From positions 2,757,076 through 2,821,075 of the forward strand of contig OX638344.1 in the NCBI GenBank assembly GCA_951813555.1: a DNA stretch of 64,000 nt. The letters are read 5' to 3'. The position numbers and the translations under genes were made by a program. This stretch comes from an uncultured Acidimicrobiales bacterium. GTDB lineage: Bacteria > Actinomycetota > Acidimicrobiia > Acidimicrobiales > Bin134. A model generated the notes under the pieces. That model did no database searches and was not told the origin of the DNA. It was given only the letters and a program-made list of their open reading frames with translations. This document shows, in pieces, positions 17,696 through 47,604 of this stretch. Position 1 is the stretch's first letter. Every line of letters starts with the position of its first letter.

Positions 17696-19210
17696 CGGGT
17701 GATGATCACGGGGGCAACAGGATTCATAGGCGGACACACCGCGGCGCGCGCCATTCAGGCTGGTCACGAAGTCTGTGCCCTGGTGAGGTCGCCCGAAAAG
17801 CTTGAAGACCTCCGTGTGGCCTTCAATTTGCCCGCTATAGACCATGTAGCAGGAGACATGACAGATCCAGCTGCCGTCAAGGCGGCCCTCGAAGGCGCCG
17901 ACGCGGTCATCCACTGCGCCGCCGTTGTGTCTCTCGACGCTCGGGGCAACGCCCAGGGAATTGAGAACAGCATCGACGGTGCCCGGCTTGTGCTCCATCA
18001 GGCTCATGCCAAGGGGCTTGACCCGATCATTCATGTCTCCAGTGTCGCTGCCCTGTTCGAACCTGGAGCTGGAGCGCTCACCACCGACCACCCGCCCTCA
18101 TCGGCCGGCTACTCCTACGGCCAGGCCAAGGCTGACGCAGAGATGGTGGCCCGGAAGCTTCAAGCCGATAGTGCACCCATCACGATCGTCTATCCCAGCG
18201 CGGTGATCGGCCCGCCTGCGGGGTCGGCTTTCGGCGAGGCCAGCGAAGACATGGCCCGATTCACCGCATCCGGCATCATTCCCACCCGCCGGGCCGCGGT
18301 GGCGATCTCCGATGTCCGAGACATGGCCTCGCTCCTCGTTGCGCTGCTCGAACCGGGCCATGGACCTCGTCGTGTCATGTGCGGCGGTCATTTGGTCGAC
18401 ATGAACCTCTTCGCCCGCATCCACCGCGACTTCACTGGTCGAAGGTTCCCCATGATGCCGCTTCCCCCATCAGCCCTCCGGGGGGTGGGCCGTATGGCTG
18501 ATGCCATTCGGCGTGTTGTGCCCATCAACGCAGCGATGAACAGATTCAGCATGAGCGTGCTCACCCAGTGGGAGGGATCGGAAGACAGCGATCTCGCCAC
18601 CTACGGGGTGGAGTTCCGCGCCATAGAGGAGACTTTCGCTGACAGCTTGGTTGCTTGGCACGAAGCCGGCCTGCTCACTGACCGACAGTTTGGGAGAGGA
18701 CTCTCCTCCCCCAATCCCCGCACCGCGCCAACGCCGCCCAAGGGATTCCGGATGCCCCCCGGAGTGGTCCTCTCTCGCCCCTTCCGCGCCATCGGTCCTC
18801 ACGTCGTCCCACAGTTCCACCGGATGATCAACCGGCTCACCCGGGGAAGAACACTGCTCGATTCCTCCGCACAACCCATGCTCATGCTCTTCTCTATAGG
18901 CGCCAAGACCGGCCATACCCGAGAGACCCCGCTCGGCGCAGTTCCGCTTGAAGAGGGCCGCTTCTTGGTGGTGGGCAGCAACTTCGCCCGCCAAGATCAT
19001 CCGGCCTGGACAGCCAACCTTCTGGCCAACCCCGATGCTGAGATCGCGTTCCGCGGCCAGCGGACTCCGGTGCGGGCTCGACTCCTATCCGGTGCCGAAC
19101 GTGAGGCGAGATGGCTGACCGCGGTGGACTGGTATCCGCTGTGGACCCGGTACGACGCCATAACTGAGCGCGAGCTGCGCTTGTTCGAACTCGAACCCAT
19201 AACCGAGTGA
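17693..19210 (+). CDS. Fusion of NAD(P)-dependent epimerase/SDR with a Ddn-like (F420-type) reductase domain
   Basis: The protein is 505 residues. Residues 1 to about 330 are an extended SDR: ITGATGFIGGHTAARA at the N-terminus, VIHCAAVVSLDA, HVSSVAALFEPG, and Tyr/Lys in GYSYGQAKAD. Residues about 360-505 match the Ddn/DUF385 split-barrel family: PMLMLFSIGAKTGHTRETPL, FLVVGSNFARQDHPAWTANL and WTRYDAITERELRLFELEP. Ddn proteins are F420H2-dependent quinone or nitro reductases. One polypeptide would thus join a nicotinamide-dependent and a deazaflavin-dependent site. There is no stop between the domains and both look complete. Confidence 0.85.
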   Translation: MRVMITGATGFIGGHTAARAIQAGHEVCALVRSPEKLEDLRVAFNLPAIDHVAGDMTDPAAVKAALEGADAVIHCAAVVSLDARGNAQGIENSIDGARLVLHQAHAKGLDPIIHVSSVAALFEPGAGALTTDHPPSSAGYSYGQAKADAEMVARKLQADSAPITIVYPSAVIGPPAGSAFGEASEDMARFTASGIIPTRRAAVAISDVRDMASLLVALLEPGHGPRRVMCGGHLVDMNLFARIHRDFTGRRFPMMPLPPSALRGVGRMADAIRRVVPINAAMNRFSMSVLTQWEGSEDSDLATYGVEFRAIEETFADSLVAWHEAGLLTDRQFGRGLSSPNPRTAPTPPKGFRMPPGVVLSRPFRAIGPHVVPQFHRMINRLTRGRTLLDSSAQPMLMLFSIGAKTGHTRETPLGAVPLEEGRFLVVGSNFARQDHPAWTANLLANPDAEIAFRGQRTPVRARLLSGAEREARWLTAVDWYPLWTRYDAITERELRLFELEPITE

Positions 19211-19259
19211 GAGGGCAGCTAGGTAACTGGCCCCCCCGGTATCTTCGTCGAGCGGACTC

Positions 19260-33225: not shown

Positions 33226-34995
33226 TCACGACAACACGAGGTCGTCGACTAGCTGGCTCAATGTGCCGTCCACCACGCCGATGTCGGTCACATGCGGTCC
33301 CGTCAAGCAGGCCAAGCTCATCAACATGACCGAGAACAGCGGTTGGGTGAGCGGCCCGGGCGGCAAGCCGATGGCTTGGGCCGCGGCGCCGACCTCTGAC
33401 TGGAGCCGAGCGACGTCGGTGGCAGGCAAAGGTGACAGAATCCCAGCCACAGGCAGCTCGAGAATCGAGACGACCTCGCCATTCTGGACCACTGCCACTC
33501 CTCCCCCGGTGGCGATCACCGCATTGGCTGCCACCGCCATGTCGGAGGGATCGCGGCCGAACACCGAGAGGTTGTGGGTATCGTGGCTAATCGTGGTGGC
33601 TACCGCACCCGTCCAGTGGCCCCAGCCGCCTAGCAGCCCGGCAACCGGCGTGGCCGGAATCCGCCCATGGCGGTGCACGACCACGTTCAGCAAGTAGCCA
33701 TCGGGAACGGTGACGACCCCGTCGGCCACATCGACCTCGGCCTCGCCCCACTCGGTCATCACCACACCCTCTACCACCTTCATGCGGTGGCGTCCGTCCG
33801 GAACACCGGGCAGGCGGAAAATGAAGTCGTCGGCGGTCATTGTCGACAGCCTGATCGTGTCGAGCGGCGGGTTCGACGGGGCCTCGGAGACTGATTCAAG
33901 CATCACTCCCCCATGGGCCACCTGACGGCCGTCGAAGAACACATCGTCCACCGCGACTTCTTCCAAGGAGGACAACACCACGATGTCGGCCCGGCGGCCG
34001 GCGGCAACCATGCCGAGGTCGGTGCGCTGGAGGCGATAAGCAGCGTTGTAGGTGGCGATTCTCAAAGCACGCGTCGGCTCTAGGCCATAGCGGATCAATC
34101 GGCGCAAGAGATCGTCGATGCCGCCTTCTTCCAACAGCGTGGCGGCGAACAAGTCATCAGTGGCGGCAATGATGTGGGTGGGAAACTCCGGCAACTTGGC
34201 CAACTCCTCGACCAGGAGCGGCAGCACGAAATCGAAGGCGCCCCGCAACTCCACGGTCATGCCGGCGCGGAGCTTCTCCATGGCGTCCACATGGGCGAAG
34301 ACCTCATGGTCGGAGAAGATTCCCGCGCTGAGATAGGCCTGAAGCGCGGGCCCGGTCAACCCGGCGGCGTGGCCGCTGACCAGCTTTCCGCTCTCGTGGC
34401 CGGCCGCCACGATGTCAACCATGCGGGCGTCGCGGCCCAAGACTCCACCCATGTCCATGACTTCAGCCAAGCCGCCGACCTCTTCCCAAGAGAGCATCTC
34501 GGCAATGTCGGCGGCGTGCAGGTCGTGACCGGACAGCTCCAAGCCCGGCAGCGGAGGAACACAAGAGGGGGCCTGCACCACGAACCGGACCGGCAGACCC
34601 CGGCTGGCGTCAACGGCGTAGCGGACTCCCTCGACTCCGGCGATGTTGGCCAGCTCGTGGGGGTCTATGAATACCGTGGTGGTGCCTCGGGGACAGATGG
34701 CGGCGGCGTACTGACCGGGGGTGAGCATGGAGCTCTCGAAGTGCACGTGCATGTCGATGAAACCGGGGGCGATGTACCGGTCGGTGCAGTCAAAGGAGTC
34801 GGCGGCGTCGGTGCGGGAGTCAGTCGGATGGATGCTGGCCACGACCGGGCCGACGATTCCCACGTCGGCTTGGCGCAACTCTCCTGTTCCGACGTCGACC
34901 ACGGTGCCGCCGGTCAGGATCAGGTCGAAGGGTTCGTTGCCGAGCGCGGCCCCAACCGCTCGAGCCCGGGTCTCCTCCTCAAGATGGCTGTACAT
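33226..34995 (-). CDS. Adenine deaminase paralogue B (altered DDRH block)
   Basis: The 589-residue Ade-family protein has H83/H85/E87 (FIDMHVHFESSMLTP), an intact DPHELAN (111-114) and GLAEVMDMGGVLG. The block that is CTDD[KR]HPDDL in typical members reads ATDDLFAATL (D280, D281), so the conserved His is missing, and the following Gly-His reads GGID. Paralogue A has the opposite pattern. It starts the minus-strand operon B-A-flavoprotein-adenosine deaminase and is divergent from another amidohydrolase gene 63 bp away. Confidence 0.85.
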   Translation of the reverse strand: MYSHLEEETRARAVGAALGNEPFDLILTGGTVVDVGTGELRQADVGIVGPVVASIHPTDSRTDAADSFDCTDRYIAPGFIDMHVHFESSMLTPGQYAAAICPRGTTTVFIDPHELANIAGVEGVRYAVDASRGLPVRFVVQAPSCVPPLPGLELSGHDLHAADIAEMLSWEEVGGLAEVMDMGGVLGRDARMVDIVAAGHESGKLVSGHAAGLTGPALQAYLSAGIFSDHEVFAHVDAMEKLRAGMTVELRGAFDFVLPLLVEELAKLPEFPTHIIAATDDLFAATLLEEGGIDDLLRRLIRYGLEPTRALRIATYNAAYRLQRTDLGMVAAGRRADIVVLSSLEEVAVDDVFFDGRQVAHGGVMLESVSEAPSNPPLDTIRLSTMTADDFIFRLPGVPDGRHRMKVVEGVVMTEWGEAEVDVADGVVTVPDGYLLNVVVHRHGRIPATPVAGLLGGWGHWTGAVATTISHDTHNLSVFGRDPSDMAVAANAVIATGGGVAVVQNGEVVSILELPVAGILSPLPATDVARLQSEVGAAAQAIGLPPGPLTQPLFSVMLMSLACLTGPHVTDIGVVDGTLSQLVDDLVLS

Positions 34996-35058
34996 GAAAA
35001 GAAACTAGCCTCTAGCCATTACCGTGACCCGCAGAGGTGGCTTTGAAAGGCAGGCACG

Positions 35059-36429
35059 GTGACCAGTTTCTTGTTGCGCGGCGGAACGGTGCTCCCGATG
35101 GAGGGTTCGAAGGTCGTCTTCGATCCGGGATCGGTATTGGTGATCGATGGCAAGATCGAACTGGTGGGCGATGTGGCCGACGTCGATCAGCACCCCGCCG
35201 CGTCGAATGTCGAGGTGATCGACGCCACCGGCCATGCGGTGGTCCCGGGCTTTCACAACTGCCACCTCCACTCCGGGCTGCTGCGAGGCACGGCCGAATC
35301 CCTGGCCCTTTGGGAGTGGCTGGAAGACCACATCGACCCGGCCCACCGGGCGCTGACCCCGGAGATCGCCGAGGCGGCCTCGTGGATGGCCTACACCGAG
35401 GGGCTGCGGGGCGGCACCACGTCGGTATTGGATATGTGGCGGCACATGGAGGGTTCGGCGAGGGCCGCAGAGGCGATCGGCATTCGGGCCACGCTGGCTC
35501 CCTACACCGCCGATCTGTACGACTACTTCGAGACCTTGGAGACCAATCGGCGCCTGTTGGAGACGCATTTGGTGGCCGCCGATGGCCGGGTTCGAACGTG
35601 GGTGGGCTTGGAGCACATCTTCTACTGCTCACCGGACATGTTCCGGCAGGCGGCCGCGCTGGCCGAGGAGTTCAACACGGGGATCCACACCCACTCGTCG
35701 GAGTCGATATGGGAGGTGCAGGAATGCCTGCGCCAATTCGGCCGGCGCCCCATCGAGGAGTTCTACAACCGGGGAATCTTGGGAAGCCAGAGCGTGATCG
35801 CCCATGGCGTGTGGCTCGACGACCGGGAGGTGCAGTTGATGGCCCAGACCGGCACCAGCGTCACCCACTGCCCTTGCTCCAACATGAAGCTGTCGTCGGG
35901 TCCGGCCCGGATTGGCTTCTATCGGGAACAGGGCGTGACGGTGGCTTTGGGCACCGACGGGGAGAAGGAGAACAACAACCTCGACATGCTGGAGGAGATG
36001 AAGTTCGCGTCGCTCCTTCAGAAGGTGAGCACCCTCGACCCCACCACTGGAGACCCCTGGGACATCCTCGACATGGCCACCCTGTCGGGTGCCCGAGCGC
36101 TAGGCCTCGACGACGTGACCGGCTCGCTCGAGGCCGGCAAGGACGCCGACATCGTCACCGTGGACCTGGGCGGGCTGCACTTCGTGCCGGTTATGCACGG
36201 CGACGACTTCAATATCGCGGCCCACCTGGTGTTCACCGCGTCATCCCACGATGTGGCCAACGTCTGGGTGCAAGGACGACGACTGGTGGCCGATGGCGAG
36301 GTGGCCTCTGTTGACGTCGGCCAAGTCGCCGAGCAGGCACAAGCCGCGGCCGAGGAGCTATTCGAGCGTCGCCGCCAGCTTCAGGGCGCCACCCCCAGCC
36401 CCGCCACAACGCTGGGAAAGAACGCCTAG
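35059..36429 (+). CDS. Amidohydrolase (TrzA/AtzA/SAH-deaminase subgroup), canonical site
   Basis: The 456-residue enzyme has the full metal set: CHLH (GFHNCHLHSGLL), HTHSSES, VIAHGVWLDD, THCPCSNMKLSSG and LGTDGEKENNNLD with the catalytic Asp. The group deaminates or dechlorinates purines, pterins and triazines. The context argues for a purine analogue or guanine-like substrate. The start is GTG 35059 with AAGG upstream. Its last 92 codons and the bases after its stop are repeated at 43111-43411. Confidence 0.88.
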   Translation: MTSFLLRGGTVLPMEGSKVVFDPGSVLVIDGKIELVGDVADVDQHPAASNVEVIDATGHAVVPGFHNCHLHSGLLRGTAESLALWEWLEDHIDPAHRALTPEIAEAASWMAYTEGLRGGTTSVLDMWRHMEGSARAAEAIGIRATLAPYTADLYDYFETLETNRRLLETHLVAADGRVRTWVGLEHIFYCSPDMFRQAAALAEEFNTGIHTHSSESIWEVQECLRQFGRRPIEEFYNRGILGSQSVIAHGVWLDDREVQLMAQTGTSVTHCPCSNMKLSSGPARIGFYREQGVTVALGTDGEKENNNLDMLEEMKFASLLQKVSTLDPTTGDPWDILDMATLSGARALGLDDVTGSLEAGKDADIVTVDLGGLHFVPVMHGDDFNIAAHLVFTASSHDVANVWVQGRRLVADGEVASVDVGQVAEQAQAAAEELFERRRQLQGATPSPATTLGKNA

Positions 36430-36452
36430 TTCAGCCGCACCCAGCGGCGCCA
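36154..36452 (+). repeat. Direct repeat copy 1: 3' end of the amidohydrolase gene
   Basis: This segment (last 92 codons plus about 23 bases after the stop) matches 43111-43411 at about 91% by hand count over the coding part (25 differences in 276 bases, of which about 20 fall in codons that stay synonymous). Both copies are in the same direction and enclose the hsa-like genes, the dioxygenase and the sulfatase. Confidence 0.9.
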
Positions 36453-36489
36453 TATGGCCAGCTGGGGTGCGCCTACCGTTGGCATTGGG

Positions 36490-37386
36490 TCAGCCCTCGT
36501 CAGCGGGAGTCGGGAAAGGCCGGTGACCCCAAAAGCTCGGGCGGGAGATCTGGTAGGTGCCGGCGTGGTCTGGGTCCTCGACCCGTAGCCCACCCCATCC
36601 GAACTCGACCATCATCGAGTCGGGCGCTTGGCAATAGAAAGAGATCATCTCGTCGTTGGTGTGACGTCCCAAGCACATGCGGACGGGGACTCCCTGGTCG
36701 AGGCAGCGGTCTTGCGCCATGCCGACATCATCGATGGTCGCCGCTTCGACCATGATGTGCCCAAGCGGATGGGTCCGAGGCAGACCGGCGCTGAATCCCA
36801 GCGTGTGGTGACGCGGGTTGCAGCCCAAAAACGCCATCGATATCGCACCGACATGCCAGGTGTTCCGCAGGTGGAAGCCGAGCACGTCTCGGTAGAAGTT
36901 CAGGACCGGCTCGAGTTCATCGACCTTCAAAACGGCGTGTCCGAAGCCCATGTCTCCGGTCACGAAGCTCGAAACAAGGGGTGTCACCACTGGAATGTCG
37001 TTGCGAATGGGGCCGTGGTAGAGCTCTAGCGGCGTGCCGGCGGGATCTTCGAATGAGACGTAACCGGTCACGAGACGGGCGGCGGCCTCTTCGTCGGAGC
37101 CTGCTCTCACGTCGACACCCGCCCGCTCGAGGCGAGAGACCTGGGCGTGCAAGTCAGTGTCGTCGATGACTTCGAACCCGATGGCGTCGACTCCCGCGGT
37201 GTCAGCTTCGGCGACGACCAGGCGGTAGGGGTAGTTGTCCCATCGGAAATAGGCCGCGGTCGCGTCGGGGCCGGGTGTGGGCATGAAGCCGAGCACGTCG
37301 GTAGCGAACCTGCGCCACTCGTCCAGGTGTGGACTGGCGAGCCGGACGTACCCGAGGGACAGGACAGCGCTCTTTCGTGTGCTCAT
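36490..37386 (-). CDS. hsaC: Type I extradiol ring-cleavage dioxygenase (HsaC/BphC-like)
   Basis: The 298-residue protein has two VOC modules. The second carries the Fe(II) ligands H150 (FGHAVLKVDE), H210 (PLGHIMVE) and E261 (MMVEFGWGG). The catalytic His/Tyr positions NPRHHTLGF, RHTNDE and ISFYCQ are also present. It would cleave a catechol next to its hydroxyls. Order and orientation after hsaA- and hsaD-like genes match the steroid A/B-ring meta-cleavage block of Mycobacterium. The gene overlaps hsaD by 4 bp (ATGA). The exact catechol substrate is not shown by sequence. Confidence 0.87.
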   Translation of the reverse strand: MSTRKSAVLSLGYVRLASPHLDEWRRFATDVLGFMPTPGPDATAAYFRWDNYPYRLVVAEADTAGVDAIGFEVIDDTDLHAQVSRLERAGVDVRAGSDEEAAARLVTGYVSFEDPAGTPLELYHGPIRNDIPVVTPLVSSFVTGDMGFGHAVLKVDELEPVLNFYRDVLGFHLRNTWHVGAISMAFLGCNPRHHTLGFSAGLPRTHPLGHIMVEAATIDDVGMAQDRCLDQGVPVRMCLGRHTNDEMISFYCQAPDSMMVEFGWGGLRVEDPDHAGTYQISRPSFWGHRPFPTPADEG

Positions 37387-38264
37387 AGGGTGGTCTCCGA
37401 CTCATCGCGGGTGAGGAACTCGATCACGACCCGCTCAAACTCGTCCTTGCGTTCGATCATCGTCCAGTGCCCACAGTCCGGGAAGATGTGAACTTCGCAG
37501 TCGCGAATCAGGCGCATTGCGGGGATCAACCCGTCAGGGGGCGTGACCCGGTCGTCTCGCCCCCAGGTGACCAGCGTCGGCGCCTGGATCTCGCGCAGCG
37601 TCACGAACTCGTTGGTGTTGTCGAGCATGATGTCGCGTAGAAACGACAGCATTTCCCGGCTGTAGATCTGGCGGATACCGGCGAGCGCCTCGGGCTCGGT
37701 TGCTGCCTCCCAGCGACGGTCGATCATCTTCTCGGTGAGGGTGGCGGTGTCGAAAACCATCGATCGCATCCAGGCGATGAGCAGTTCTCGGGTGGGGTTC
37801 TCAACGAAGTCGACGAGCCGACTGATGCCTTCCGACGGCAACGGGCTGAACAGCGGAAGTCCGACCCCGCCGATGGTCGCCAGCCGCCGCACCTGGTCGG
37901 GGCGAGCCGCCGCCACCTGAGAGGCGAACTTTCCCCCCAGTGAATTGCCGAGCAGCGAGAACGAATCCAGGCCGAGCCCGTCAACGAAGGCAGCAACGGC
38001 CTCGGCCCCGTGAAGTACAAGATTGGTGGGTGGGGTGTAGCTGCGACCGAAGCCCGGCAGATCCAGCACCAGGCAACGGAAGTGGGGAGCGAACGCCGCG
38101 AGGTTCTCGCCGAAGTTGGCCCAGCCGGTAGCCCCCGGGCCAGAGCCGTGCAGCATGACCAACGGCGGACCATGGCCCACCTCGTGAAAGTGCAGGACAC
38201 CGTGCTCGGTGCGTAGCGTTCGGCTGGTGTCCTCTTCGGTGAAGAGTGGCGTCGTTGCGTTCAT
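37383..38264 (-). CDS. hsaD: Meta-cleavage product hydrolase (HsaD/BphD-like)
   Basis: The 293-residue alpha/beta hydrolase has oxyanion motif HGSGPGATGWANF, nucleophile S108 (GNSLGG), D239 (WGRDDRVTPP) and H267 (DCGHWTMIE). Residue spacing is nearly that of mycobacterial HsaD. It cuts the C-C bond of the ring-opened vinylogous acid made by the extradiol dioxygenase whose gene follows with 4 bp overlap. Confidence 0.87.
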   Translation of the reverse strand: MNATTPLFTEEDTSRTLRTEHGVLHFHEVGHGPPLVMLHGSGPGATGWANFGENLAAFAPHFRCLVLDLPGFGRSYTPPTNLVLHGAEAVAAFVDGLGLDSFSLLGNSLGGKFASQVAAARPDQVRRLATIGGVGLPLFSPLPSEGISRLVDFVENPTRELLIAWMRSMVFDTATLTEKMIDRRWEAATEPEALAGIRQIYSREMLSFLRDIMLDNTNEFVTLREIQAPTLVTWGRDDRVTPPDGLIPAMRLIRDCEVHIFPDCGHWTMIERKDEFERVVIEFLTRDESETTL

Positions 38265-38283
38265 GGACTGAGAACCTCTGCGC

Positions 38284-39471
38284 TCAGATGGTGACCGCTG
38301 ATGGACCGGTGGGCGGCAGGCCCATCAGGACCCCTCCGGCGAGGTCGAGCAGCGGGCCTCGGAGGAAAATGCCGTGATGGAGCCCGGCGTGCATGCCCCG
38401 CCAGAATCGCTGCACCGGCTTGTCGAGACGGATCGCGTTCCCACCGCAGATGTCATAAACGGTGTTGGCTGCCTCCGCCGCCCGCCACGCCGCGCGGACC
38501 TGATCGCGCCGAAGCGCAACCCGCTGGTCGATCCCAATCGTGTGGCCGGCTCGAACCGCGTCGTATGCCTCGCCGATGTTGTGGACCAACTGAATGCGAG
38601 CGCTGGCGATTTCGGCGGCCGCCTCGCCGAGCACCCGCCGAGAATGGGGGTCGTCGGCCTGCACGACCCCTAGGTTGGAGACCCGCCCTGCCTGGTATTC
38701 AATGCCCCGCTGGAGTACGCCTTCGGCGATTCCGATCAGCCCTGCTGCCACCCCACCGGGAAACACGGCTGACCACGGCACGTTGAACAGGGGATCGCCG
38801 CTGCGGACCGACTCCTTGGCGGCGCGACCGTCGAGGAGCTTGCGCACATCGAGTGTGCGATAGTCGGGCACGAACTTGCCATCGACGATGACGTCTTTGC
38901 TCCCGGTCCCTTCGAGTCCAATCGTGTTCCACGAATCCTCGACGATTTCGTAGTCGGCGCGAGGCAACATGACATGGAGACTGCCGATGGGCGGATCGTC
39001 CGGTCCGGCGGAGGCCGCCTTGACCATCGCACCCAGCACGATCCAGTCGCAGAGATCGGTGCCGGAGGAGAACGACCAGCGGCCATTGACGATGAAGCCG
39101 CCGTCGGTCGGCGTTGCGACTCCCGAGGGTGCGTACGGCGATGCAACCCATGTGTCAGGGTCGTCACCCCAGACCTCCTCTTGCAACCGAGTGTCATTGA
39201 GGGCCAGCTCCCAGGGGTGAACGCCGACCACACCAGCGGTCCAGCCCGCCGAGGGGCAGTAGTTCCCGATGTCCATCACGGCGTTGAGGAAGTCGCGGGG
39301 ATCGGCCTCCAGGCCTCCGAAGTCCCGCGGCTGCAACATCCGAACGACTCCGGTCTCCTTCAGCAACTTGCCCGTGTCGTCGGGAAGCCGTCCGAGTGCA
39401 TCGGCGTTGCTTGAGTGGTCGGCCAGGTAGGGCCCGAGCTCGGCGATCTGTTCGATGGTGGGATGGGCCAT
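38284..39471 (-). CDS. hsaA: Flavin-dependent monooxygenase oxygenase component (HsaA-like)
   Basis: The 395-residue acyl-CoA dehydrogenase-fold protein closely follows HsaA: LPDDTGKLLKETGVVRMLQP, GGLEADPRDF, GVHPWELALNDTRLQEEVWG, GRWSFSSGTDLCDWIVLGA and IGLEGTGSKDVIV. HsaA hydroxylates a phenol to a catechol using reduced flavin from the partner HsaB. No hsaB-like flavin reductase gene is present nearby. GGAGGA 9 bases upstream supports ATG 39471 over the ORF start at 39495. It is the first gene of the hsaA-hsaD-hsaC unit. Confidence 0.87.
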   Translation of the reverse strand: MAHPTIEQIAELGPYLADHSSNADALGRLPDDTGKLLKETGVVRMLQPRDFGGLEADPRDFLNAVMDIGNYCPSAGWTAGVVGVHPWELALNDTRLQEEVWGDDPDTWVASPYAPSGVATPTDGGFIVNGRWSFSSGTDLCDWIVLGAMVKAASAGPDDPPIGSLHVMLPRADYEIVEDSWNTIGLEGTGSKDVIVDGKFVPDYRTLDVRKLLDGRAAKESVRSGDPLFNVPWSAVFPGGVAAGLIGIAEGVLQRGIEYQAGRVSNLGVVQADDPHSRRVLGEAAAEIASARIQLVHNIGEAYDAVRAGHTIGIDQRVALRRDQVRAAWRAAEAANTVYDICGGNAIRLDKPVQRFWRGMHAGLHHGIFLRGPLLDLAGGVLMGLPPTGPSAVTI

Positions 39472-39541
39472 GCGTGTGTGTCCTCCGGATAGCACGATGG
39501 GTCAAGGGGCGGTCAGTAGCGTCACGCAGGCGTCGATGAGA

Positions 39542-39558
39542 ATAAGCTAGTAACTTAT
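39542..39558. promoter_or_regulatory. Imperfect 17-bp palindrome between hsaA and the dioxygenase gene
   Basis: ATAAGCTAGTAACTTAT has 14 of 17 positions matching its own complement (ATAAG/CTTAT arms and an inner TA/TA). It lies 34 bp before the dioxygenase ATG and 71 bp before the hsaA ATG. It looks like a TetR-type operator for the divergent pair but is not the KstR motif as I remember it. Confidence 0.5.
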
Positions 39559-39591
39559 CGCGACGTCTACTGCGACGGGACGCAGCCCTGC

Positions 39592-40542
39592 ATGAAAGTG
39601 ATCAATAAGGCCCAGGGAACGATCGATGCTGGCGACCGGGTCGAGGTTCTTCCGATGTCTCAGCACACGGGTGCGGAGATTCACGGCGTCGATCTCCGCG
39701 AACCGATGGATGACTCCACAATTAGCGCCATCCGCGCCGCTCTCTTGCGGTGGAAGGTCGTGTTCTTCCGGGACCAGGAACTCACCCGAGACGAGCACGT
39801 GGCGTTTGGCCGCGGCTTCGGATCAGTGATCTCTGGCCATCCGACGCTGGCACCGCGGTTCCCGGAGCATCCGGAAATCGTGATGATCGAAAAGGAACAC
39901 CACCGCGACGACCCAGACGCCAACGAGATCGAGCACCGCTGGCACAACGACCTGTCGTACACGGCCGCGCCGCCGATGGGGTCGATTCTTCGCGCAATTT
40001 CCGTGCCGCCGTTCGGTGCCGATACCGAATGGACGAATCTCGCGGCGGCGTACGCGACCCTGTCTGCCCCCATCCGTGAGCTCATCGACGGGCTTACCGC
40101 GGTCCACCACAACGTCTTGCACGTCGTGAAGGGGGAACCGAACAAACTCGCCCGCGAGTTCATGGCCACTCCTCTCCGAGCCCGGCACCCCGTGGTGACC
40201 GTGCACCCCGAAACTGGCGAGCGCCAGCTGTACGTGAACCCCGACTACACAAGCCACATCGTCGAACTCTCACGCCAGGAGAGCGGCCATCTGCTCGAAA
40301 TGCTCAACGAACACCTGTGCAGCCGAGAGTTCACGGTTCGGTTCCGTTGGCGCCCAGGCAGCATCGCATTCTGGGACAACCGGGCGACGGCCCACATTGC
40401 GCCGGCGGACGTGGTGCCGGGCCATCGGCGCGTCATGGAGCGCATCACGCTCGACGGTGCTTCGTTCGTCGGCCCGACCGGCTTCGAGTCGGTGACGGTG
40501 GACGAGTCAGGTGCTCCCGTGGTCGGCACCCGGAGCCCGTGA
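39592..40542 (+). CDS. TauD/AtsK-like Fe(II)/2-oxoglutarate dioxygenase
   Basis: This 316-residue enzyme has the facial triad HND (RWHNDLSY) and distal His (DNRATAHIAP), with the 2-oxoglutarate Arg in GHRRVMERITL. Family members release sulfite from taurine or cleave alkyl sulfate esters. Directly downstream, in the same unit, is a sulfatase, so organosulfate use is a fair guess. The ATG start follows a 120-bp divergent promoter region shared with hsaA. Confidence 0.9.
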   Translation: MKVINKAQGTIDAGDRVEVLPMSQHTGAEIHGVDLREPMDDSTISAIRAALLRWKVVFFRDQELTRDEHVAFGRGFGSVISGHPTLAPRFPEHPEIVMIEKEHHRDDPDANEIEHRWHNDLSYTAAPPMGSILRAISVPPFGADTEWTNLAAAYATLSAPIRELIDGLTAVHHNVLHVVKGEPNKLAREFMATPLRARHPVVTVHPETGERQLYVNPDYTSHIVELSRQESGHLLEMLNEHLCSREFTVRFRWRPGSIAFWDNRATAHIAPADVVPGHRRVMERITLDGASFVGPTGFESVTVDESGAPVVGTRSP

Positions 40543-40570
40543 GCAACCCGGAGTACACAATCACACGAGC

Positions 40571-42856
40571 ATGAACGACAACCATCGGGACCAGCCGCAG
40601 CCCTTCGGCGGCCACATTGCCCGTCTGGCCGGCGATTCGACCCCATGGTGGCCCGAACCGGTTCGGCCCGCTCAGGGCAACCCCAACATCATTGTCGTCC
40701 TACTTGACGATCTCGGCTTCTCCGACATCAGCCCCTACGGCTCGGAGATCTCCACCCCTACCCTCGACCGCCTCAGCGCCGGGGGCCTGCGCTTCACCAA
40801 CTATCACACCGCCCCGCTGTGCTCACCGTCTCGTGCGTCCATCCACACTGGGATGAACCCGCACCGGGCCGGGTTCGCCGGAGTCGCCAACTTCGACCCG
40901 GGCTTTCCGGGTTGGACGATGGAGATCGATCCCTCGATCGACACGCTCCCCCACCTCCTTCGCGACGCGGGGTACGCCACCTTCGCCGTCGGCAAGTGGC
41001 ACTTGACTCGCGACGGGGCGATGCACGACGGCGCTCCCCGCAATTCGTGGCCGCTACAGGTCGGCTACGACCGGTTCTACGGCGTGCTGGAGGGCTGGAC
41101 CAACATGCACCATCCCCATCGGCTCGTGCGCGACAACTCACCGGTGGCGGTCGACACGTACCCCGACGGCTACTACTTCACCGACGACATCACCGATGAG
41201 GCGATCTCCTATCTCAAATCGCTGCGATCCCACGACTCGACCCGCCCTTACTTCCTGTACCTGGCCCACGGGGCGGTCCACGGACCGCTCCAGGCCAAGG
41301 CGAACGACATCGCCACGCATCGGGGCCGTTACCAGCAGGGGTGGGATGAGGTCCGAGCACGCCGATTCGCAAATCAGATCGAGCTGGGCTTGTTCGACAA
41401 GGGCACGGCGCTACCGCCGCGCAACCACGAGCCTGGCTACGAGGTTGAGGCTTGGGCCACCCTCCCCGCTGAGGCTCAGGACAGGTACGCAAGGTACATG
41501 GAGGTCTACGCCGCGATGGTCGACAACGTCGACCAGAACCTCGCCCGCCTCTTGGCTGCAGTCGAAGCGCTGGGCGACCTGGACAACACGGTCGTCTTGT
41601 TCACCTCCGACAACGGCGCGACCCGAGAGGGCGGGGCGCAGGGAACGCGGAGCTACTACCGCCAATTCGGAAACCCAGCAGGGTTTGGACGCGACTTCGA
41701 CATCGAGCGCGATCCCGATCTCATCGGCGGTCCTCAAGCGATGGTGCACTACCCCCGCGGATGGGGGATGGCGTCTAACACGCCGTTTCGGCTCTACAAG
41801 TCCTGTACCCACGCTGGCGGCGTGCGGGTGCCCATGATCGTTTCGTGGCCAAAGGGCATCGGACTCGACCGCGCCGGCACGATCCATCGCCAGTACCAGT
41901 ACGTCACCGACCTCCTCCCGACAATCCTCGAACTCGCTCAGGTCGAGACGCCAAAGGACCTCGACGGCGCCAGCTTCGCCTCCGCCATCACCCATGGAGC
42001 CACCGAAAGCACCCACCTGGAGCAATACTCGGAGTGCTTCGGCAATCGAAGCTTCTACCGCAATGGATGGAAACTCGTCACGCTCCACCAGCGTGGGGCC
42101 GCGTATGACGACACAGAGTGGGAGCTCTACAACATCACCACCGACCCCACCGAGGTCAACGACGTCGCCGCCCAGCACCCAGAAGTCATCGCGGAACTCG
42201 CCGATGCCTGGGAACGCACCGCCTGGAACAACCAGGTGTTCCCGCTCGACGACGGCCTCGGGCTTCTCCAAGTGTTGCGCCGACCCGATGAAGCCTCGCT
42301 CAACGAACCCGTCCGTCTCCTGGCGGGCACACCGTCACTCGAGCGCTACCGGTCCCAGAAGCTCGTCGCACTCCGGGACTTCGACATCGAGATCGACATC
42401 GTGCACCAAGACGCCGACGGTGTCCTCGTCGCCCACGGTGACCAGGGAGGCGGATACGTGGTGTACATCGAGCATGGCATCGTGCATTTTGGATATAACG
42501 AGTACGGCATCGAAAAGATCGTCGCGGCGAACCTCTTGGACCCGGGCCGGCACCAGATCCACATCGCGGCTCGTTGTGGCGAGCCCTACACCTGGAATTT
42601 CACGATAAGCGTGGACGGCCGCCCGCAGGCAACCCTCGACGGAGTAGAGATGCTGATGGGCTTTGCTCCATTCCAAGGCATCGACGTCGGCATCGATCGC
42701 CGCTCTCCTGTCCTGTGGTCGACGTTTGAGACCCACGGCGCCTTCGCCTACCCCGGCGTCATCGAAGCGGTTACCTACCTACCTGGCCCCCCGGCACCCT
42801 ACGACCCGGCCGAACTCATACAGCTGATGCGTAGCGCAGGAAGACGAACGGAATAG
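40571..42856 (+). CDS. Type I sulfatase (formylglycine-dependent), AtsD-like length
   Basis: The protein is 761 residues. Metal-binding VVLLDDLGFSD (D46, D47) is followed by the modification motif C84-S-P-S-R (PLCSPSRASIHTGMNPHR), GKWHLTR and TSDNGATREGG. The Cys must be oxidised to formylglycine by an FGE or anSME enzyme, and neither gene is in the window. Residues from about 590 form a beta-rich extra C-terminal domain (DIEIDIVHQDADGVLVAHGD onward). There is no signal peptide. ATG 40571 is preferred over the frame start at 40511, which overlaps the dioxygenase gene. Confidence 0.9.
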   Translation: MNDNHRDQPQPFGGHIARLAGDSTPWWPEPVRPAQGNPNIIVVLLDDLGFSDISPYGSEISTPTLDRLSAGGLRFTNYHTAPLCSPSRASIHTGMNPHRAGFAGVANFDPGFPGWTMEIDPSIDTLPHLLRDAGYATFAVGKWHLTRDGAMHDGAPRNSWPLQVGYDRFYGVLEGWTNMHHPHRLVRDNSPVAVDTYPDGYYFTDDITDEAISYLKSLRSHDSTRPYFLYLAHGAVHGPLQAKANDIATHRGRYQQGWDEVRARRFANQIELGLFDKGTALPPRNHEPGYEVEAWATLPAEAQDRYARYMEVYAAMVDNVDQNLARLLAAVEALGDLDNTVVLFTSDNGATREGGAQGTRSYYRQFGNPAGFGRDFDIERDPDLIGGPQAMVHYPRGWGMASNTPFRLYKSCTHAGGVRVPMIVSWPKGIGLDRAGTIHRQYQYVTDLLPTILELAQVETPKDLDGASFASAITHGATESTHLEQYSECFGNRSFYRNGWKLVTLHQRGAAYDDTEWELYNITTDPTEVNDVAAQHPEVIAELADAWERTAWNNQVFPLDDGLGLLQVLRRPDEASLNEPVRLLAGTPSLERYRSQKLVALRDFDIEIDIVHQDADGVLVAHGDQGGGYVVYIEHGIVHFGYNEYGIEKIVAANLLDPGRHQIHIAARCGEPYTWNFTISVDGRPQATLDGVEMLMGFAPFQGIDVGIDRRSPVLWSTFETHGAFAYPGVIEAVTYLPGPPAPYDPAELIQLMRSAGRRTE

Positions 42857-42866
42857 CAGTGATGTC

Positions 42867-42926
42867 GGAGGGGGACCCACGAGGATCTATAACTGCATTT
42901 AAATACAACCAGGGTGTGCCCCCTCC
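42867..42926 (+). terminator. Possible long hairpin after the sulfatase gene
   Basis: GGAGGGGG (42867-42874) pairs with CCCCCTCC (42919-42926), and the adjacent ACCC can pair with GGGT (42912-42915). The loop is AT-rich and about 40 bases long. It starts 10 bases after the sulfatase stop. No U-run follows, so it could be a terminator or an mRNA-stabilising stem. Confidence 0.4.
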
Positions 42927-42970
42927 CGCGGAGTGCACCTGGTGAGATGACGTGCCGCCACGGAGCGTGC

Positions 42971-43078
42971 GTGAACGAGCAGCCGAAAAAGAACGAAATG
43001 ACGGACAGTAACAGCGGTGCGACATCGGTCAACGTCATCGGCCCGGTGCCACCTGATCCCGAGCAGCTCACCAACTAG
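42971..43078 (+). other. Small hydrophilic ORF, unsupported
   Basis: GTG 42971 opens a 35-codon frame (starts MNEQPKKNEMTDSNSGA, ends VPPDPEQLTN) lying just before the amidohydrolase tail copy. The composition is gene-like, but there is no recognised family and no clear ribosome-binding site. It could be the end of a disrupted gene at the repeat junction. Confidence 0.2.
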
Positions 43079-43110
43079 AGCCGTCGTCTCCGTGTTCGTC
43101 GGGAAGGGAC

Positions 43111-43411
43111 CATCGTCACCGTGGACCTGGGTGCCCTCCACTTCGTGCCGGTCATGCACGGCGACGACTTCAACATCGCCGCCCACTTGGTGTTCACCGC
43201 GTCATCCCACGATGTGGCCAACGTCTGGGTGCAAGGACGACATCTCGTGGCCGATGGCGAAGTGGCCTCTGTTGACGTCGGCCAAGTCGCCGAGCAGGCC
43301 CAGGCCGCGGCCGAAGAGCTATTCGAGCGCCGCCGCCAACTCCAAGGCGACACCCCCAGCCCCGCGACAACACTGGGCAAGAACGTCTAAATCAGCCTGT
43401 ACCAGCGGCGC
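43111..43411 (+). pseudogene. Orphan 3' tail of an amidohydrolase gene (direct repeat copy 2)
   Basis: From 43111 the sequence encodes the last 92 residues of an amidohydrolase (LHFVPVMHGDDFNIAAHLVF ... ending SPATTLGKNV, stop at 43390). It is almost identical to the end of the intact gene at 35059-36429, and the similarity continues about 20 bases past the stop. There is no 5' part, so it is non-functional as an enzyme. Most base differences from copy 1 are synonymous, so this tail came from a gene that was under selection, not from decay of a recent copy. Confidence 0.88.
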
Positions 43412-43418
43412 TGGATAG

Positions 43419-44630
43419 TCAGCCCCCGGTGGGGGTGAAGGTGAGTGGCATGGTCTTGGGGGCCCGGGTGAACACGCCTTCTGGCGTGGGTGGGAGGCCG
43501 TCGAACGCGACAATATCCATGGCATCCAGCAGCTGGTTGGTGGCGATGTCGACCTCGGTCTTGGCCAGCATGGCCCCGATGCAGAAATGCCGGCCCAAGC
43601 AGAATCCGGTGTGGTTGGCGGCCCCGGAGAACGCCTTGGACACGTCGAGATCCTCGCGGAAGATGTCGAAGCGGTCGGGATCGTCGTAGCGGCGGGGGTC
43701 GCGGTTGGCGCCGGCGATGAGACAGGTCACCGTGGAACCGGCCGGAATGGTCACCCCGTGCATCTCCACGTCCACTTCGGGCTGGCGCATGATCATCTGC
43801 ACCGGTGGCGAGTGCCGCAGCGTCTCGGCGAAGGCATTGTCGATGAGGCTGCGATCGTTGCGAACGGCCTCTAGCTGATCTGGGTTGGCGACCAGGTTCA
43901 TCATCATGTTGGCCATGGCCTTGTCGGTGGTCTCTCCCCCGGCCACCAACAGCAGCGATACAAACGCCTTGATCTCTAAATCAGTCATCTGCTCGCCGTC
44001 GATAACCGCGGTGCATAGCGTGCTGAGCAGATCGTCGCCGGGATTGGCACGCCTCTCGGCGATGATCGGCATCAAATAGGCCTGGAGCTCGTCTTTGGTC
44101 TGGAGCCCCTGGGCCATAACTTCCTCGTCGCCAGTGAGGTTGCTGAGGAACATCATGATCGAGTGGTACCACTTCTGGAATCGCTCGTGATCCGACTTGT
44201 CCAACCCCAGCATGTCGACGATCACATTGATCGGGAAGCGGATCGAGAACTGGTCGACCAGGTCGACCTTGCCGTCAGTGCGGAAGCCGTCGATGAGGTC
44301 GCGGGCATTGGCCGCGATGACCGGGACGAACTTTGCCGTCAACTCGCTGCCCCGGAAGGCGGGAGCGATCAGATTTCGGTGGGCGGAGTGGTCGCGCCCC
44401 TCCATCTGGAGGATCGTCCGTCCGTGGACCGGCTCGAGCTGCCACTCATAGTTCTTGTTGGTGAAGGTCTTGTCCTTGAAGGCCCTCTCGACGTCGTCGT
44501 AGCGAGAGATCAGCCATGCCTCGGTGGCCTCGTGATACACGACAGGGTATTCCTCACGCATCACCGCCAAGACGGCATTGGGGTCTTCGGCAAATGCTGT
44601 GGACAGAATGTCCGGTTCGATGGCGGCCAC
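43419..44630 (-). CDS. Cytochrome P450
   Basis: This 403-residue P450 has I-helix LLVAGGETTDKAM, K-helix ETLRHSPPVQ and heme loop FCLGRHFCIG with thiolate Cys350. It starts at GTG 44630. Its 3' end faces the amidohydrolase tail copy and its 5' end abuts a katG tail remnant. No redox partner gene is near. The substrate is unknown. Confidence 0.93.
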   Translation of the reverse strand: MAAIEPDILSTAFAEDPNAVLAVMREEYPVVYHEATEAWLISRYDDVERAFKDKTFTNKNYEWQLEPVHGRTILQMEGRDHSAHRNLIAPAFRGSELTAKFVPVIAANARDLIDGFRTDGKVDLVDQFSIRFPINVIVDMLGLDKSDHERFQKWYHSIMMFLSNLTGDEEVMAQGLQTKDELQAYLMPIIAERRANPGDDLLSTLCTAVIDGEQMTDLEIKAFVSLLLVAGGETTDKAMANMMMNLVANPDQLEAVRNDRSLIDNAFAETLRHSPPVQMIMRQPEVDVEMHGVTIPAGSTVTCLIAGANRDPRRYDDPDRFDIFREDLDVSKAFSGAANHTGFCLGRHFCIGAMLAKTEVDIATNQLLDAMDIVAFDGLPPTPEGVFTRAPKTMPLTFTPTGG

Positions 44631-44639
44631 AGGCCAACC

Positions 44640-44693
44640 TTACAGATCGAAGCGATCCAGGTTCATTACCTTGGCCCAGGCCGCCGAAGAGTC
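44640..44693 (-). pseudogene. Remnant of a katG 3' end
   Basis: Read on the minus strand this encodes [17 protein letters not shown] then TAA. The intact catalase-peroxidase gene ends [18 protein letters not shown]. The remnant is in the same direction as katG and lies 0.8 kb beyond its stop, with the mazEF-like module between the two tails. No further katG sequence precedes it. Confidence 0.85.
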
Positions 44694-44714
44694 AAGGTGA
44701 CCGCTGGTCGACCA

Positions 44715-45071
44715 TCACAGGCTAAGTGCGTTTCGCAGGATCTCGTCTATTGCCCGCAAGCGCACTGGATCGAGCCGACCTAGCCGTTCCACGAAACGAT
44801 GAGTCGATACCGCCCGGACCTGTTCGACTTGGAACGCAGTGGCCGAAACAAGGCCGGTGCCAACATCGGGTTCAACCACGACATGAAGCGGCACCGAGCG
44901 AATCGTCGATGTGCCCGGCACCACGATCACCATCTTCAAATTTGGATGGTGCAGTCGGTCGTCAGAGACAATCAGCGCTGGACGGCGAAAGGCCTGCTCA
45001 GGATGCTCAGGGTCGGCGCCGAAATCCACAGACCACACATCACCCCGAGCGAACCGCCCCTCAGAGTTCAT
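44715..45071 (-). CDS. mazF: MazF/PemK-type mRNA interferase toxin
   Basis: The 118-residue protein has the MazF SH3-like core: ARGDVWSVDFG, RRPALIVSDDRLH, MVIVVPGTSTIRSVPLHVVV, then QVEQVRAVSTHRFVERLGRL. MazF cleaves single-stranded mRNA at short motifs. The start overlaps the antitoxin stop by 11 bp. All typical core residues seem present. Confidence 0.87.
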   Translation of the reverse strand: MNSEGRFARGDVWSVDFGADPEHPEQAFRRPALIVSDDRLHHPNLKMVIVVPGTSTIRSVPLHVVVEPDVGTGLVSATAFQVEQVRAVSTHRFVERLGRLDPVRLRAIDEILRNALSL

Positions 45072-45288
45072 CCAAACCGTCTATTGCGGCAGCATCCAAC
45101 CGCCTACTCTCCATCTGGTAGGCGTCAACCTCCGACGGGGCCAGATCATCAAGCGCATCCCGGACCGATGACCACCACTCGTCACGGCCAAGCCGATGTA
45201 CCGCGTCGGCAACGACGTCAACCATGGACGTGCCTCGCTGCTCAGCCATCCAGGCGATCTCATCCCGCAACTCGCTCGGGACCCGCAA
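45061..45288 (-). CDS. MazE-like ribbon-helix-helix antitoxin (true start probably upstream)
   Basis: The frame encodes a strand (TLRVPSELRDEIAWMAEQRG) and helices of an RHH antitoxin, then an acidic tail ending GLDEL. TTG 45288 is the only canonical start but cuts the DNA-binding strand in half. The frame continues upstream as APSKTTT, the usual start of such antitoxins, to an ATA codon at 45312 and is open to 45321. TAGTCT at 45324-45319 looks like a -10 box 6 bases before that ATA. Either a rare ATA start or a mutated ATG is likely. Confidence 0.78.
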   Translation of the reverse strand: MRVPSELRDEIAWMAEQRGTSMVDVVADAVHRLGRDEWWSSVRDALDDLAPSEVDAYQMESRRLDAAAIDGLDEL

Positions 45289-45369
45289 TGTTGTCGTCTT
45301 TGAAGGCGCTATAAAAGTAGACTACCACGGATACCTAACAGGCTTCTATCCCGTAAGCCTACGAAGGCT

Positions 45370-45405
45370 GCCGGCCAGCGGGAGAGGGGGATCCCGCTGG
45401 CCGGC
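45370..45405. terminator. Strong GC-rich hairpin downstream of katG
   Basis: GCCGGCCAGCGGG (45370-45382) is an exact 13-base complement of CCCGCTGGCCGGC (45393-45405) with a 10-base loop. It lies 16 bases beyond the katG stop, between katG and the antitoxin gene. No U-run follows on either strand, as is common for actinobacterial terminators. Confidence 0.7.
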
Positions 45406-45420
45406 TGGCCATCACTGGGC

Positions 45421-47604
45421 TCAGGTCAGGTCGAACCGATCCAGGTTCATGACCTTGGCCCAGGCTGAGGCGAAATCGTTGACGAACTTCTCCTCGCCGT
45501 CGTCGCACCCGTAAACCTCGGCTATGGCCCGGAGCTGCGAGTTGGAGCCGAACACCAGGTCGGCGGCGGTGGCCGTCCAGCGGAGCTCGCCGGTGGCGCA
45601 GTCCCGGCCCTCGTAGACGCCGGACTGGTCGATTGAGGCCTGCCATTCGGTGTCCATGGTGAGGAGGTTGGTGAAGAAGTCATTGGTGAGGGTGCCCGGC
45701 CGGTCGGTGAGCACACCGTGTTGGGATTGGCCGACGTTGGCATTCAGCGCTCGCATCCCGCCGACCAGCACGGTCATCTCGGGAGCGGTCAGGTTGAGCA
45801 GGAACGCCTTGTCCACCAGCAGCTCCTCGGCGGGACGCTTGTGGAAGTCGGCCAAGTAGTTGCGGAAGCCGTCGGCGGTGGGCTCCAGCACGGCGAAGCT
45901 CTCGACGTCGGTCTGATCCTGGGAGGCGTCGGTGCGGCCCGGCGAGAACGGAACTGCCACGTTGTGGCCGGCTTCGCTAGCTGCTTTCTCCACTGCGGCG
46001 CATCCGCCGAGGACGATGAGATCGGCCAGTGAGACCTGCGGACCTCCTTGGGCGTTGAAGTCTGCTTGGACCTGCTCGAGGACGGCTACCACGTCGGCCA
46101 CGCCCGCTTGGACGTTGACGTTCCAGCCGCTCTGGGGTGCGAGTCGAATGCGGGCTCCGTTGGCCCCGCCTCGCATGTCGGTGCCCCGGAACGTCGAGGC
46201 CGAGGCCCAGGCGGTGGAGACCAGCTGGGAAACCGACAGCCCGGAGCTCAGGATCCGGGCCTTCAGGTCGGCGATCTCATCGGCACCGATGGACTCGCCC
46301 TGGGGAGCGGGAACCGGGTCTTGCCAGATCAGCTCCTCATCGGGAACCTCAGGGCCGAGGTAGCGGGCCACCGGGCCCATGTCGCGGTGGGTGAGCTTGA
46401 ACCAGGCCCGAGCGAAGGCGTCGGCCAGCTCGTCGGGATTCTCGTGGAAGCGGCGGGAAATGGGCTCGTAAATCGGGTCGAACCGCAACGCCAGGTCGGT
46501 GGTCAGCATCATCGGCGCACACCGCACGGATGGATCATGGGCATCCGGGACGGTGTCATCCGCGGCCCGGTCGGTCGGGCGCCACTGGTGGGCGCTGGCG
46601 GGACTCTGGGTCAGCTCCCATTCATAGCCGAACAGGTTGTCGAAGAAACCGTTGTCCCACGTCGCGGGGTCGTTGGTCCATGCTCCTTCGAGGCCACTGG
46701 TGATGGCATCGCCGCCCACTCCGGTTCCGAAGGTGTTCTTCCAGCCCAAGCCCTGTTCTTCGATGCTGGCTGCTTCGGGATCATCCCCGACATAGGTGTC
46801 GGGGGCGGCTCCGTGAGCCTTGCCGAAGGTGTGGCCGCCGGCGATCAGCGCCACGGTTTCCTCGTCGTCCATGGCCATGCGGGCGAAGGTCTCCCGGATA
46901 TCGATTCCGGCGGCAATGGGATCGGGATTGGCGTTGGGGCCTTCGGGATTGACATAGATGAGGCCCATCTGCACCGCGCCCAGCGGGGTCTCCAGGTCGC
47001 GTTCTCCGGTGTAGCGCTCGTCGCCGAGCCACTCATTCTCCGAACCCCAGTAGATGTCCTCCTCCGGGGCCCAGATGTCGGGGCGGCCGCCGCCGAACCC
47101 GAAGGTCTCGAAACCCATCGACTCCAGGGCCACGTTGCCGGCCAGAATCAACAGGTCGGCCCAAGAGAGCCTGCGGCCGTACTTCTGCTTGACCGGCCAC
47201 AGCAGCCGGCGGGCCTTGTCGAGGCTCGCGTTGTCGGGCCAGCTGTTCAACGGCGCAAACCGCTGAGCGCCGGTGCCGCCACCGCCGCGGCCGTCGCCGA
47301 CCCGGTAGGTGCCCGCCGCGTGCCAGGTGAGGCGGATCATCAACGGGCCGTAGTGGCCGTAGTCAGCGGGCCACCAGTCCTTGGAGTCGACCAGCACGTC
47401 GGCGATGTCCTGTTTCACCGCCGCCAGATCGAGTGTTTCGAACTCTGCGGCGTAGTCGAAGCCATCCCCCATCGGATCGGCTTCAGGGGAATGCTGGTGC
47501 AGGATCTTCAGATTCAGCTGCTCAGGCCACCACTGCTCGGTGGCCGATGTGCCCTTGGCGGTGTTGGCGCCCGAAAACGGGCACTGGCTGGTGCTCTCAG
47601 TCAT
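45421..47604 (-). CDS. katG: Catalase-peroxidase
   Basis: The 727-residue bifunctional heme enzyme breaks down hydrogen peroxide. Distal R91, W94, H95 ([15 protein letters not shown]), the W94-Y217-M243 crosslink set ([16 protein letters not shown]) and proximal H258 ([12 protein letters not shown]) are all intact. Length is normal, with the second, heme-free domain in the C-terminal half. It lies 42 bp downstream of the Fur-family gene, the usual furA-katG operon, repressed by metal-loaded Fur and induced by peroxide. Its last 17 codons recur as a remnant at 44640. Confidence 0.97.

Follow-up and report, generated by a model that had tools for sequence, protein, structure and literature searches.

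Homology-facilitated illegitimate recombination (HFIR), in which incoming DNA is held by homology on one side and closed by an illegitimate join on the other side with no dedicated recombinase, is known in S. pneumoniae, A. baylyi and P. stutzeri and occurs at low frequency in E. coli, and it is described as generally deleting recipient DNA (PMC3240628). In a laboratory case reported in the same paper, a polymerase chain reaction product for a duplicated lacZ end was obtained from 56 of 60 lacZ-negative clones; the duplications measured 109-950 bp in the 14 clones sequenced and are explained there by a re-closed circle that had a shortened arm and integrated through one crossover (PMC3240628). 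At type VI secretion system effector and Rhs loci of Vibrio and other bacteria, an incoming module pushes the old 3' end backwards, for which the authors propose HFIR (PMC5361080). In a survey that covered E. coli and other species, illegitimate recombination is named as the source of much of the small-scale variable sequence (PMC2884548). Here, we describe a locus in a stretch of 64,000 nucleotides (the window) from contig OX638344.1 of an uncultured Acidimicrobiales bacterium, in which a cassette of five catabolic genes, here called the cargo, follows an intact amidohydrolase gene and is itself followed by a second copy of the 3' end of this gene and by a cytochrome P450 gene. Our best reading is that the locus is a natural instance of this known kind of event, homology-anchored combined with illegitimate recombination. 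A search for HFIR combined with 'metagenome-assembled' found no paper in the literature collection used.

The two copies of the gene end, referred to as tail 1 (36150-36450) and tail 2 (43111-43411), run in the same direction and are identical at 271 of 301 positions (90%) in a gapless alignment (BLAST E 3e-114). With the 301-bp tail as query, exactly two places were found in the whole window genome (one contig, 3.81 Mb) at E <= 0.001, and a self-comparison of the window yielded, besides this repeat, a single further pair of 39 bp. Tail 2 lacks the 5' part of the gene, and its stop codon is spaced 28 bp from the P450 gene. Further matches to the amidohydrolase protein in the window genome are distant, with 40% identity or less, and are ordinary. 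The first-pass annotation, made from the letters of the window alone, had described this repeat with limits that are off by at most 4 bases and an identity of about 91% that is off by one point; its second copy without a 5' part was confirmed by the alignment. It had judged most differences to be synonymous; third codon positions account for 20 of the 25 coding differences that separate the two tails (280 bp compared; p 2e-6 against one third). It had also taken everything between the copies to be cargo, which applies to the core cargo and not to 36451-36507, a left flank, or to 42998-43110, the start of a broken KshA-like gene. It had seen no integrase, transposase or tRNA, and likewise no tRNA was detected in the 64-kb window and no integrase or transposase among 28 Pfam-scanned proteins, 18 of which are window proteins and represent a subset of the window's open reading frames. 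No Rfam family reached its threshold within 34000-46000.

The amidohydrolase was searched for in 60 genomes including the window's own, 22 of which belong to its genus. The gene is present at near full length in the window genome, in seven other genomes of the genus (84-96%) and in one genome of another family (74%); some genus genomes with no match are incomplete bins (68-84%), and absence from these is not firm. Several of the relatives' bins presumably derive from sponges, as read from isolate names. Four of the eight genus genomes with the gene (G006, G010, G018 and G001) have an empty site, in which the amidohydrolase gene is directly followed by the P450 gene, while the site is filled in the other four, namely the window genome, G013, G015 and G020. 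An empty site of this form had been predicted in the first-pass annotation, which had named the same gene order in relatives with no empty form as the outcome that would speak against an insertion; four empty sites exist. Among 79 loci with amidohydrolase relatives in named genomes, the P450 (at least 91% identical as a protein) is the neighbour only in the seven matching genomes of the genus. Of the four filled sites, only those of the window and G013 possess a second tail, and G015 and G020 have the cargo with one tail. As the relatives are metagenome bins and repeats can mislead assemblers, an assembly or binning artefact has to be considered. However, the arrangement is common to the window and G013, yet there are 23 cargo differences between the two, and the G013 and G015 loci are located on contigs of 243 kb and 258 kb, respectively. 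The separate G013 assembly has the same left junction as the window and a right junction 24 bp earlier in terms of the tail, which makes one mis-assembly unlikely, and we regard an artefact as extremely improbable.

Over 6349 bp, the core cargo of the window differs at 23 positions from that of G013, at 48 from G015, at 79 (of 6348) from G020 and at 412 (of 6347) from G002, a fifth genome with the cargo. When compared in 500-bp windows, all 13 cargo windows are at least 98.6% identical to G015, against a background of 61 windows with a mean of 82.1% and a maximum of 89.6%. The minimum for G013 is 99.0% (63 background windows, mean 92.2%, maximum 98.6%) and for G020 97.7%, the background in the latter case consisting of only nine windows (mean 87.9%, maximum 91.0%). 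The 48 differences to G015 include 27 third-position and six non-coding ones, so that these sites are also nearly unchanged. As the cargo of the window is 98.8-99.6% identical to that of the other filled genomes and the compared surroundings average 82-92%, these identities indicate that the five-gene cargo has recently moved horizontally between species. A foreign base composition was considered as a further mark and rejected, since the GC content of the cargo (64.3%) matches that of the window (64.0%). If the cargo were instead old in the genus and had been lost in G006, G010, G018 and G001, its site patterns should follow the species grouping, and they do (17 to 0 of 113 two-state sites). 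However, the divergence of the cargo is about ten to twenty times below that of the compared surroundings, third-position and non-coding sites included, and G002 has the cargo elsewhere, and we consider such vertical inheritance very improbable. The first 4 kb of the cargo have matches in 100 of 397 genomes of the order; among the matches listed, those spanning this whole length come only from the same five genus genomes (at least 93%), and the others are partial. With regard to a vehicle, 46 plasmid records match the cargo, none with a single place covering 80% of the query; the best among the plasmid matches listed covers 27% of the query at 64.9%, and 36 of the 46 records, including five at 90-95% identity, are outside those listed. 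One scan of viral contigs with the HsaC-like protein found no relative.

In G002, the cargo is 93.5% identical and is flanked by a different convergent gene pair, MFS on one side and DUF4143 AAA on the other (L068 5731-12088, reverse complement). We compared seven stretches from six genomes for this site: the same MFS and DUF4143 genes are about a dozen bases apart with nothing between them in G012, G003 and G015, a contig end suggests the same adjoining arrangement in G007, and in G018 and G020 the MFS gene is succeeded by other sequence. With this G018 sequence as reference, the join in G002 falls inside the final codons of hsaC. The end of hsaC thus takes three forms, one in the window and G013, one in G015 and G020, and one in G002, with its stop in or at the insertion site; after a common HRPFP, its last codons read TPADEG, T or AGPAPG depending on the setting (window 36490-36507; L042, L068). 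Going by these alignments, the cargo is common to five species and occupies two sites, which had not been foreseen in the first-pass annotation; nor had the broken kshA-like gene in its flank.

The junctions differ between the filled sites. On the left, the cargo begins 21 bp past the stop codon of the amidohydrolase gene in the window and G013 and at the stop codon in G015 and G020, and the right junctions of the window and G013, of G015 and of G020 are all unlike. At the right junction of G015, 7 bp (GCAGTGA) are common to the cargo flank and the empty site of G006, and some 13 bp are lost relative to G006. The 254 bp behind the sulfatase gene in the window are absent from G015, G020 and G002 save for the first few bases (six in G015); among the 397 genomes of the order they are found in the window and G013 only, G008 being probably outside this sample. 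The last 113 bp of this flank are identical at 103 positions to a G008 gene coding for a protein with PF19298 KshA_C and PF00355 Rieske domains. The fragment contains an in-frame TAG at codon 27 and is then abruptly fused to tail 2 at 43110/43111; the same fragment with the same stop is present in G013, in which the junction keeps 24 bp more. The block thus once ran on into a kshA-like gene, and tail 2 begins on its left with an illegitimate join. Both this fusion and the right junction of G015 with its seven shared bases are junctions at little or no homology, as in HFIR. In G008, the kshA-like gene and its neighbours (L069 1855-2862) are flanked by sequences which nearly adjoin each other in the window (19197-19250), which represents a further presence/absence site.

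The tails have diverged under coding constraint. Between the tails 2 of the window and G013, both of which are now cut off from the gene, 15 of 20 differences are at third positions (p 2e-4), as are most of those between the two tails of the window, which indicates that the tails diverged while they still belonged to functional genes and that the joining to the cargo came afterwards. This bias speaks against a simple target-site duplication with subsequent decay in situ. The four tails of the window and G013 have 19-26 differences among themselves and 28-57 to six other tails. The differences between the two tails 2 are unevenly spread, with one in the first 76 bp and 19 in the remaining 204 bp (p 0.018), and within the first 76 bp the two share four clustered states (36171, 36173, 36174, 36177) that are found in none of eight other tails. 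To judge from this pattern, only the inner end of tail 2 seems to accompany the cargo when it moves. A clean tail mosaic of the Campbell type was looked for and is absent past 36225. Two smaller exchanges are not claimed: three pairing sites (36342, 36405, 36417) are too few to claim an exchange between tail 1 of the window and tail 2 of G013, and an import of the last 32 bases of the G015 tail, which equal those of the window, was dropped, as the more distant G018 is also near that sequence. The segment 43251-43750, at tail 2 and the P450 end, is 91-92% identical to G013 beside windows of 97-99% and is likely a further recombination tract.

This dip, after which identity returns to 98%, would also suit an in-place duplication, in which the cargo entered through a pair of illegitimate joins whose targets overlapped by about 320 bp, leaving two tails that were identical at first, and recombination with other strains subsequently replaced tail 2 together with the P450 end; tail 2 is continuous with the P450 gene and could be replaced there by recombination. 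However, this route requires two rare joins and a later replacement in both genomes, and it sits poorly with the four states that the first 76 bp of the tails 2 share. We consider it unlikely.

Instead, we think it probable that the block is a recent horizontal acquisition, which arose by recombination anchored in the 3' end of the amidohydrolase gene combined with one illegitimate join. We infer the order of events, the anchoring role of the tail and the route of entry as follows. DNA with the five-gene cassette, originally followed by a kshA-like gene, would have entered a cell in which the amidohydrolase gene directly preceded the P450 gene, and homology in the amidohydrolase 3' end would have provided the anchor. 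The other side would have been closed by a single illegitimate join, which fused the broken kshA-like gene to an internal point of the amidohydrolase tail. Because this join lay about 300 bp upstream of the end of the gene, the cargo would now be preceded by a whole amidohydrolase gene and followed by a leftover tail. Such a join could have formed in the chromosome, as in HFIR, or while the incoming fragment circularised before being integrated by one crossover. The assembled block would later have moved between species, giving rise to the G015 and G020 versions without the spare tail and the non-coding flanks. The sequence shared in the window and G013 is the amidohydrolase tail, but the donor-type stretches visible outside the cargo do not exceed a few tens of bases.

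A mobile element with its own recombinase, since lost or unrecognised, which used the gene end as target or attachment site and moved the block whole, would explain why four filled sites are found at one place, two of them with flanking direct repeats, why the left junctions of G015 and G020 are identical, and why TAAG is present at both cargo ends in G020. However, the ends are unlike in the window and G013, in G015, in G020 and in G002, only two of the four filled sites have the long repeat, a comparison of the cargo end regions revealed no exact inverted repeat of at least 10 bp, and no recombinase was seen among the scanned proteins. The traits of transposons and insertion sequences, namely fixed ends, terminal inverted repeats and a short target duplication, are not recognisable, the repeat in the window being 301 bp long and 10% divergent, and of the marks expected of an integrase-borne island, no integrase was found among the 18 window proteins scanned and no tRNA in the window. 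We regard such an element as distinctly unlikely. From the sequence of the window, both a tail-restoring insertion and a homology-assisted recombination with a related strain had been put forward, and both receive support; the latter fits better than a dedicated inserting element because the cargo ends vary by setting, no inverted repeat of that length is present and the tails had diverged before they were joined.

Several observations weigh against a homology-anchored acquisition of this kind. In the window and G013 the recipient tail is duplicated and not deleted, whereas textbook HFIR usually deletes recipient DNA. The left junctions of G015 and G020 are equal to the base, and TAAG at both cargo ends, seen in G020 alone, is also readable as a short target duplication. 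The window and G013 differ at 19 of 280 positions in tail 1 and at 20 in tail 2, compared with 23 of 6349 in the cargo, and identity drops right at the cargo edges in the pairs examined, which a single transfer by long flanking homology would not leave behind; the proposal therefore needs the assumption of repeated later exchange with other strains in the flanks. The 3' parts of tail 1 in the window and G013 disagree, whereas a clean circle model predicts agreement. At 17 of the 113 two-state cargo sites, the window and G013 are grouped against G015 and G020, with zero conflicting sites, and as the cargo tree agrees with the species grouping, the number of transfers is uncertain. Lastly, a ComEC-type gene in the window genome is weak evidence for DNA uptake, as the family is also present in 10 of 14 control genomes.

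Compared with the described systems, the proposed event resembles HFIR in its presumed homology on one side, its illegitimate join on the other side and the lack of a dedicated recombinase, but a gene tail is duplicated here in place of the deletion described there, and the homologous crossover point is not locatable. The product of the re-closed circle and single crossover has the same layout, with a gene in front, an insert and a truncated copy of the gene end behind (PMC3240628), but stems from a plasmid experiment in E. coli with a cloned lacZ end, whereas the tails of our locus are 10% apart and form no clean mosaic. The T6SS effector and Rhs loci share the displaced 3' end, but as described (PMC5361080) the effector gene itself is swapped, whereas our locus retains the gene and gains catabolic cargo that is unrelated to it. 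In unconventional circularizable structures, a block is surrounded by direct repeats and no recombinase is encoded. Our locus is similar in both respects, but two of the four filled sites are without repeats.

A second, smaller case of similar anatomy is located 1.2 kb away. The KatG end at 45427-45465 recurs at 44643-44681 with a PemK/MazF-like toxin gene in between, and G013 has one KatG-tail copy and no match to the toxin segment. In 100-bp windows, the last approximately 300 bp of KatG with the downstream end (45360-45659) are 91-98% identical to six of ten genomes (G015, G019, G012, G010, G006 and G003) and 81-88% to G018 and G021; G017 has no KatG match in the stretch examined, and over 45460-45659 identity to G013 is 80-88%. 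The orphan tail forms part of a stretch with 97% identity to G013, but it is short, and other matching genomes are 83-95% identical over its 39-47 bases. By this profile, the gene-attached KatG end looks imported from a G015/G019/G012-like source and the orphan end looks native. Identity to G013 dips again at 46060-46359 (81-83%), which shows the mosaic structure of KatG to extend to more than one region. If the KatG case is taken as a guide, tail 2 of the amidohydrolase may be the native one, a point which its own sequence does not settle.

As to the function of the cargo, the HsaC-, HsaD- and HsaA-like proteins all score below the NCBIfam cut-offs (254 of 450, 260 of 400 and 359 of 450 bits, respectively), and the BphC model scores higher for the HsaC-like protein (286 of 366 bits) and is still under its cut-off. 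Their sequences are related to the steroid ring cleavage set and not assignable as equivalogs, so that steroid ring cleavage is a lead, which is strengthened by the broken kshA-like neighbour. In the genus, the HsaC-like gene is present only in the five cargo genomes (5 of 22 at E <= 1e-20). Steroid-degradation genes have been reported from sponge metagenomes by Holert et al., who suggest that kshA and hsaC were transferred horizontally in proteobacterial bins (PMC5790920).

Table 1. Features of the amidohydrolase-P450 locus and the adjoining KatG region, in window positions.
Feature	Position	Strand	Evidence
Amidohydrolase (TRZ/ATZ/deaminase-like), complete, contains tail copy 1	35059..36429	+	PF01979 E 6e-64; DNA 96% to G013, 84-89% to six other genus genomes
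Tail copy 1 (final 280 coding bases and 21 bp past stop)	36150..36450	+	271/301 to copy 2
Left flank of core cargo, 57 bp, with hsaC last codons and stop	36451..36507	.	Common to G013 only among the matches listed (genus search)
HsaC/BphC-like extradiol ring-cleavage dioxygenase	36490..37386	-	PF00903, PF22632; under NCBIfam cut-offs for HsaC and BphC
HsaD-like alpha/beta hydrolase	37383..38264	-	PF00561; NF045632 best, under cut-off
HsaA-like monooxygenase, oxygenase part	38284..39495	-	PF08028; NF045629 best, under cut-off; PDB 2or0, 2rfq, 3afe
TauD-type dioxygenase	39592..40542	+	PF02668 E 3e-62
Sulfatase	40511..42856	+	PF00884 E 6e-58
Core cargo, common to five genomes	36508..42856	.	99.64, 99.24, 98.76 and 93.51% to G013, G015, G020 and G002
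KshA-like Rieske oxygenase gene start, 37 codons, TAG at codon 27, broken into tail copy 2	42998..43110	+	103/113 to G008 gene
Tail copy 2, 5' part of the gene missing, joined to P450 side	43111..43411	+	Alignment and genome comparison
Cytochrome P450, downstream neighbour in empty sites	43419..44630	-	PF00067
Orphan KatG tail (second case)	44643..44689	-	Within contiguous 97% match to G013 over 44400-44689
PemK/MazF-like toxin gene between both KatG tails	44715..45071	-	PF02452 E 1e-20
KatG-type peroxidase, 3' end (about 45421-45660) imported-looking	45421..47604	-	PF00141; identity profile

One might speculate, tentatively and with some doubt, that in these bacteria the 3' ends of conserved genes act as portable docking arms, in which case a cargo would carry a spare tail of its future host gene and the old tail would be pushed aside. 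If true, both the amidohydrolase locus and the KatG locus would exemplify a general way of stocking cassettes between convergent genes without a recombinase, in which each arrival leaves the gene whole. Taken together, the empty sites, the filled sites, the two site choices and the broken junction gene make the spread of a cassette without mobile-element machinery readable from sequence. A ring-cleavage cassette that moves between species of an uncultured marine group also bears on the distribution, within this group, of the ability to break down sterols or other aromatic compounds.

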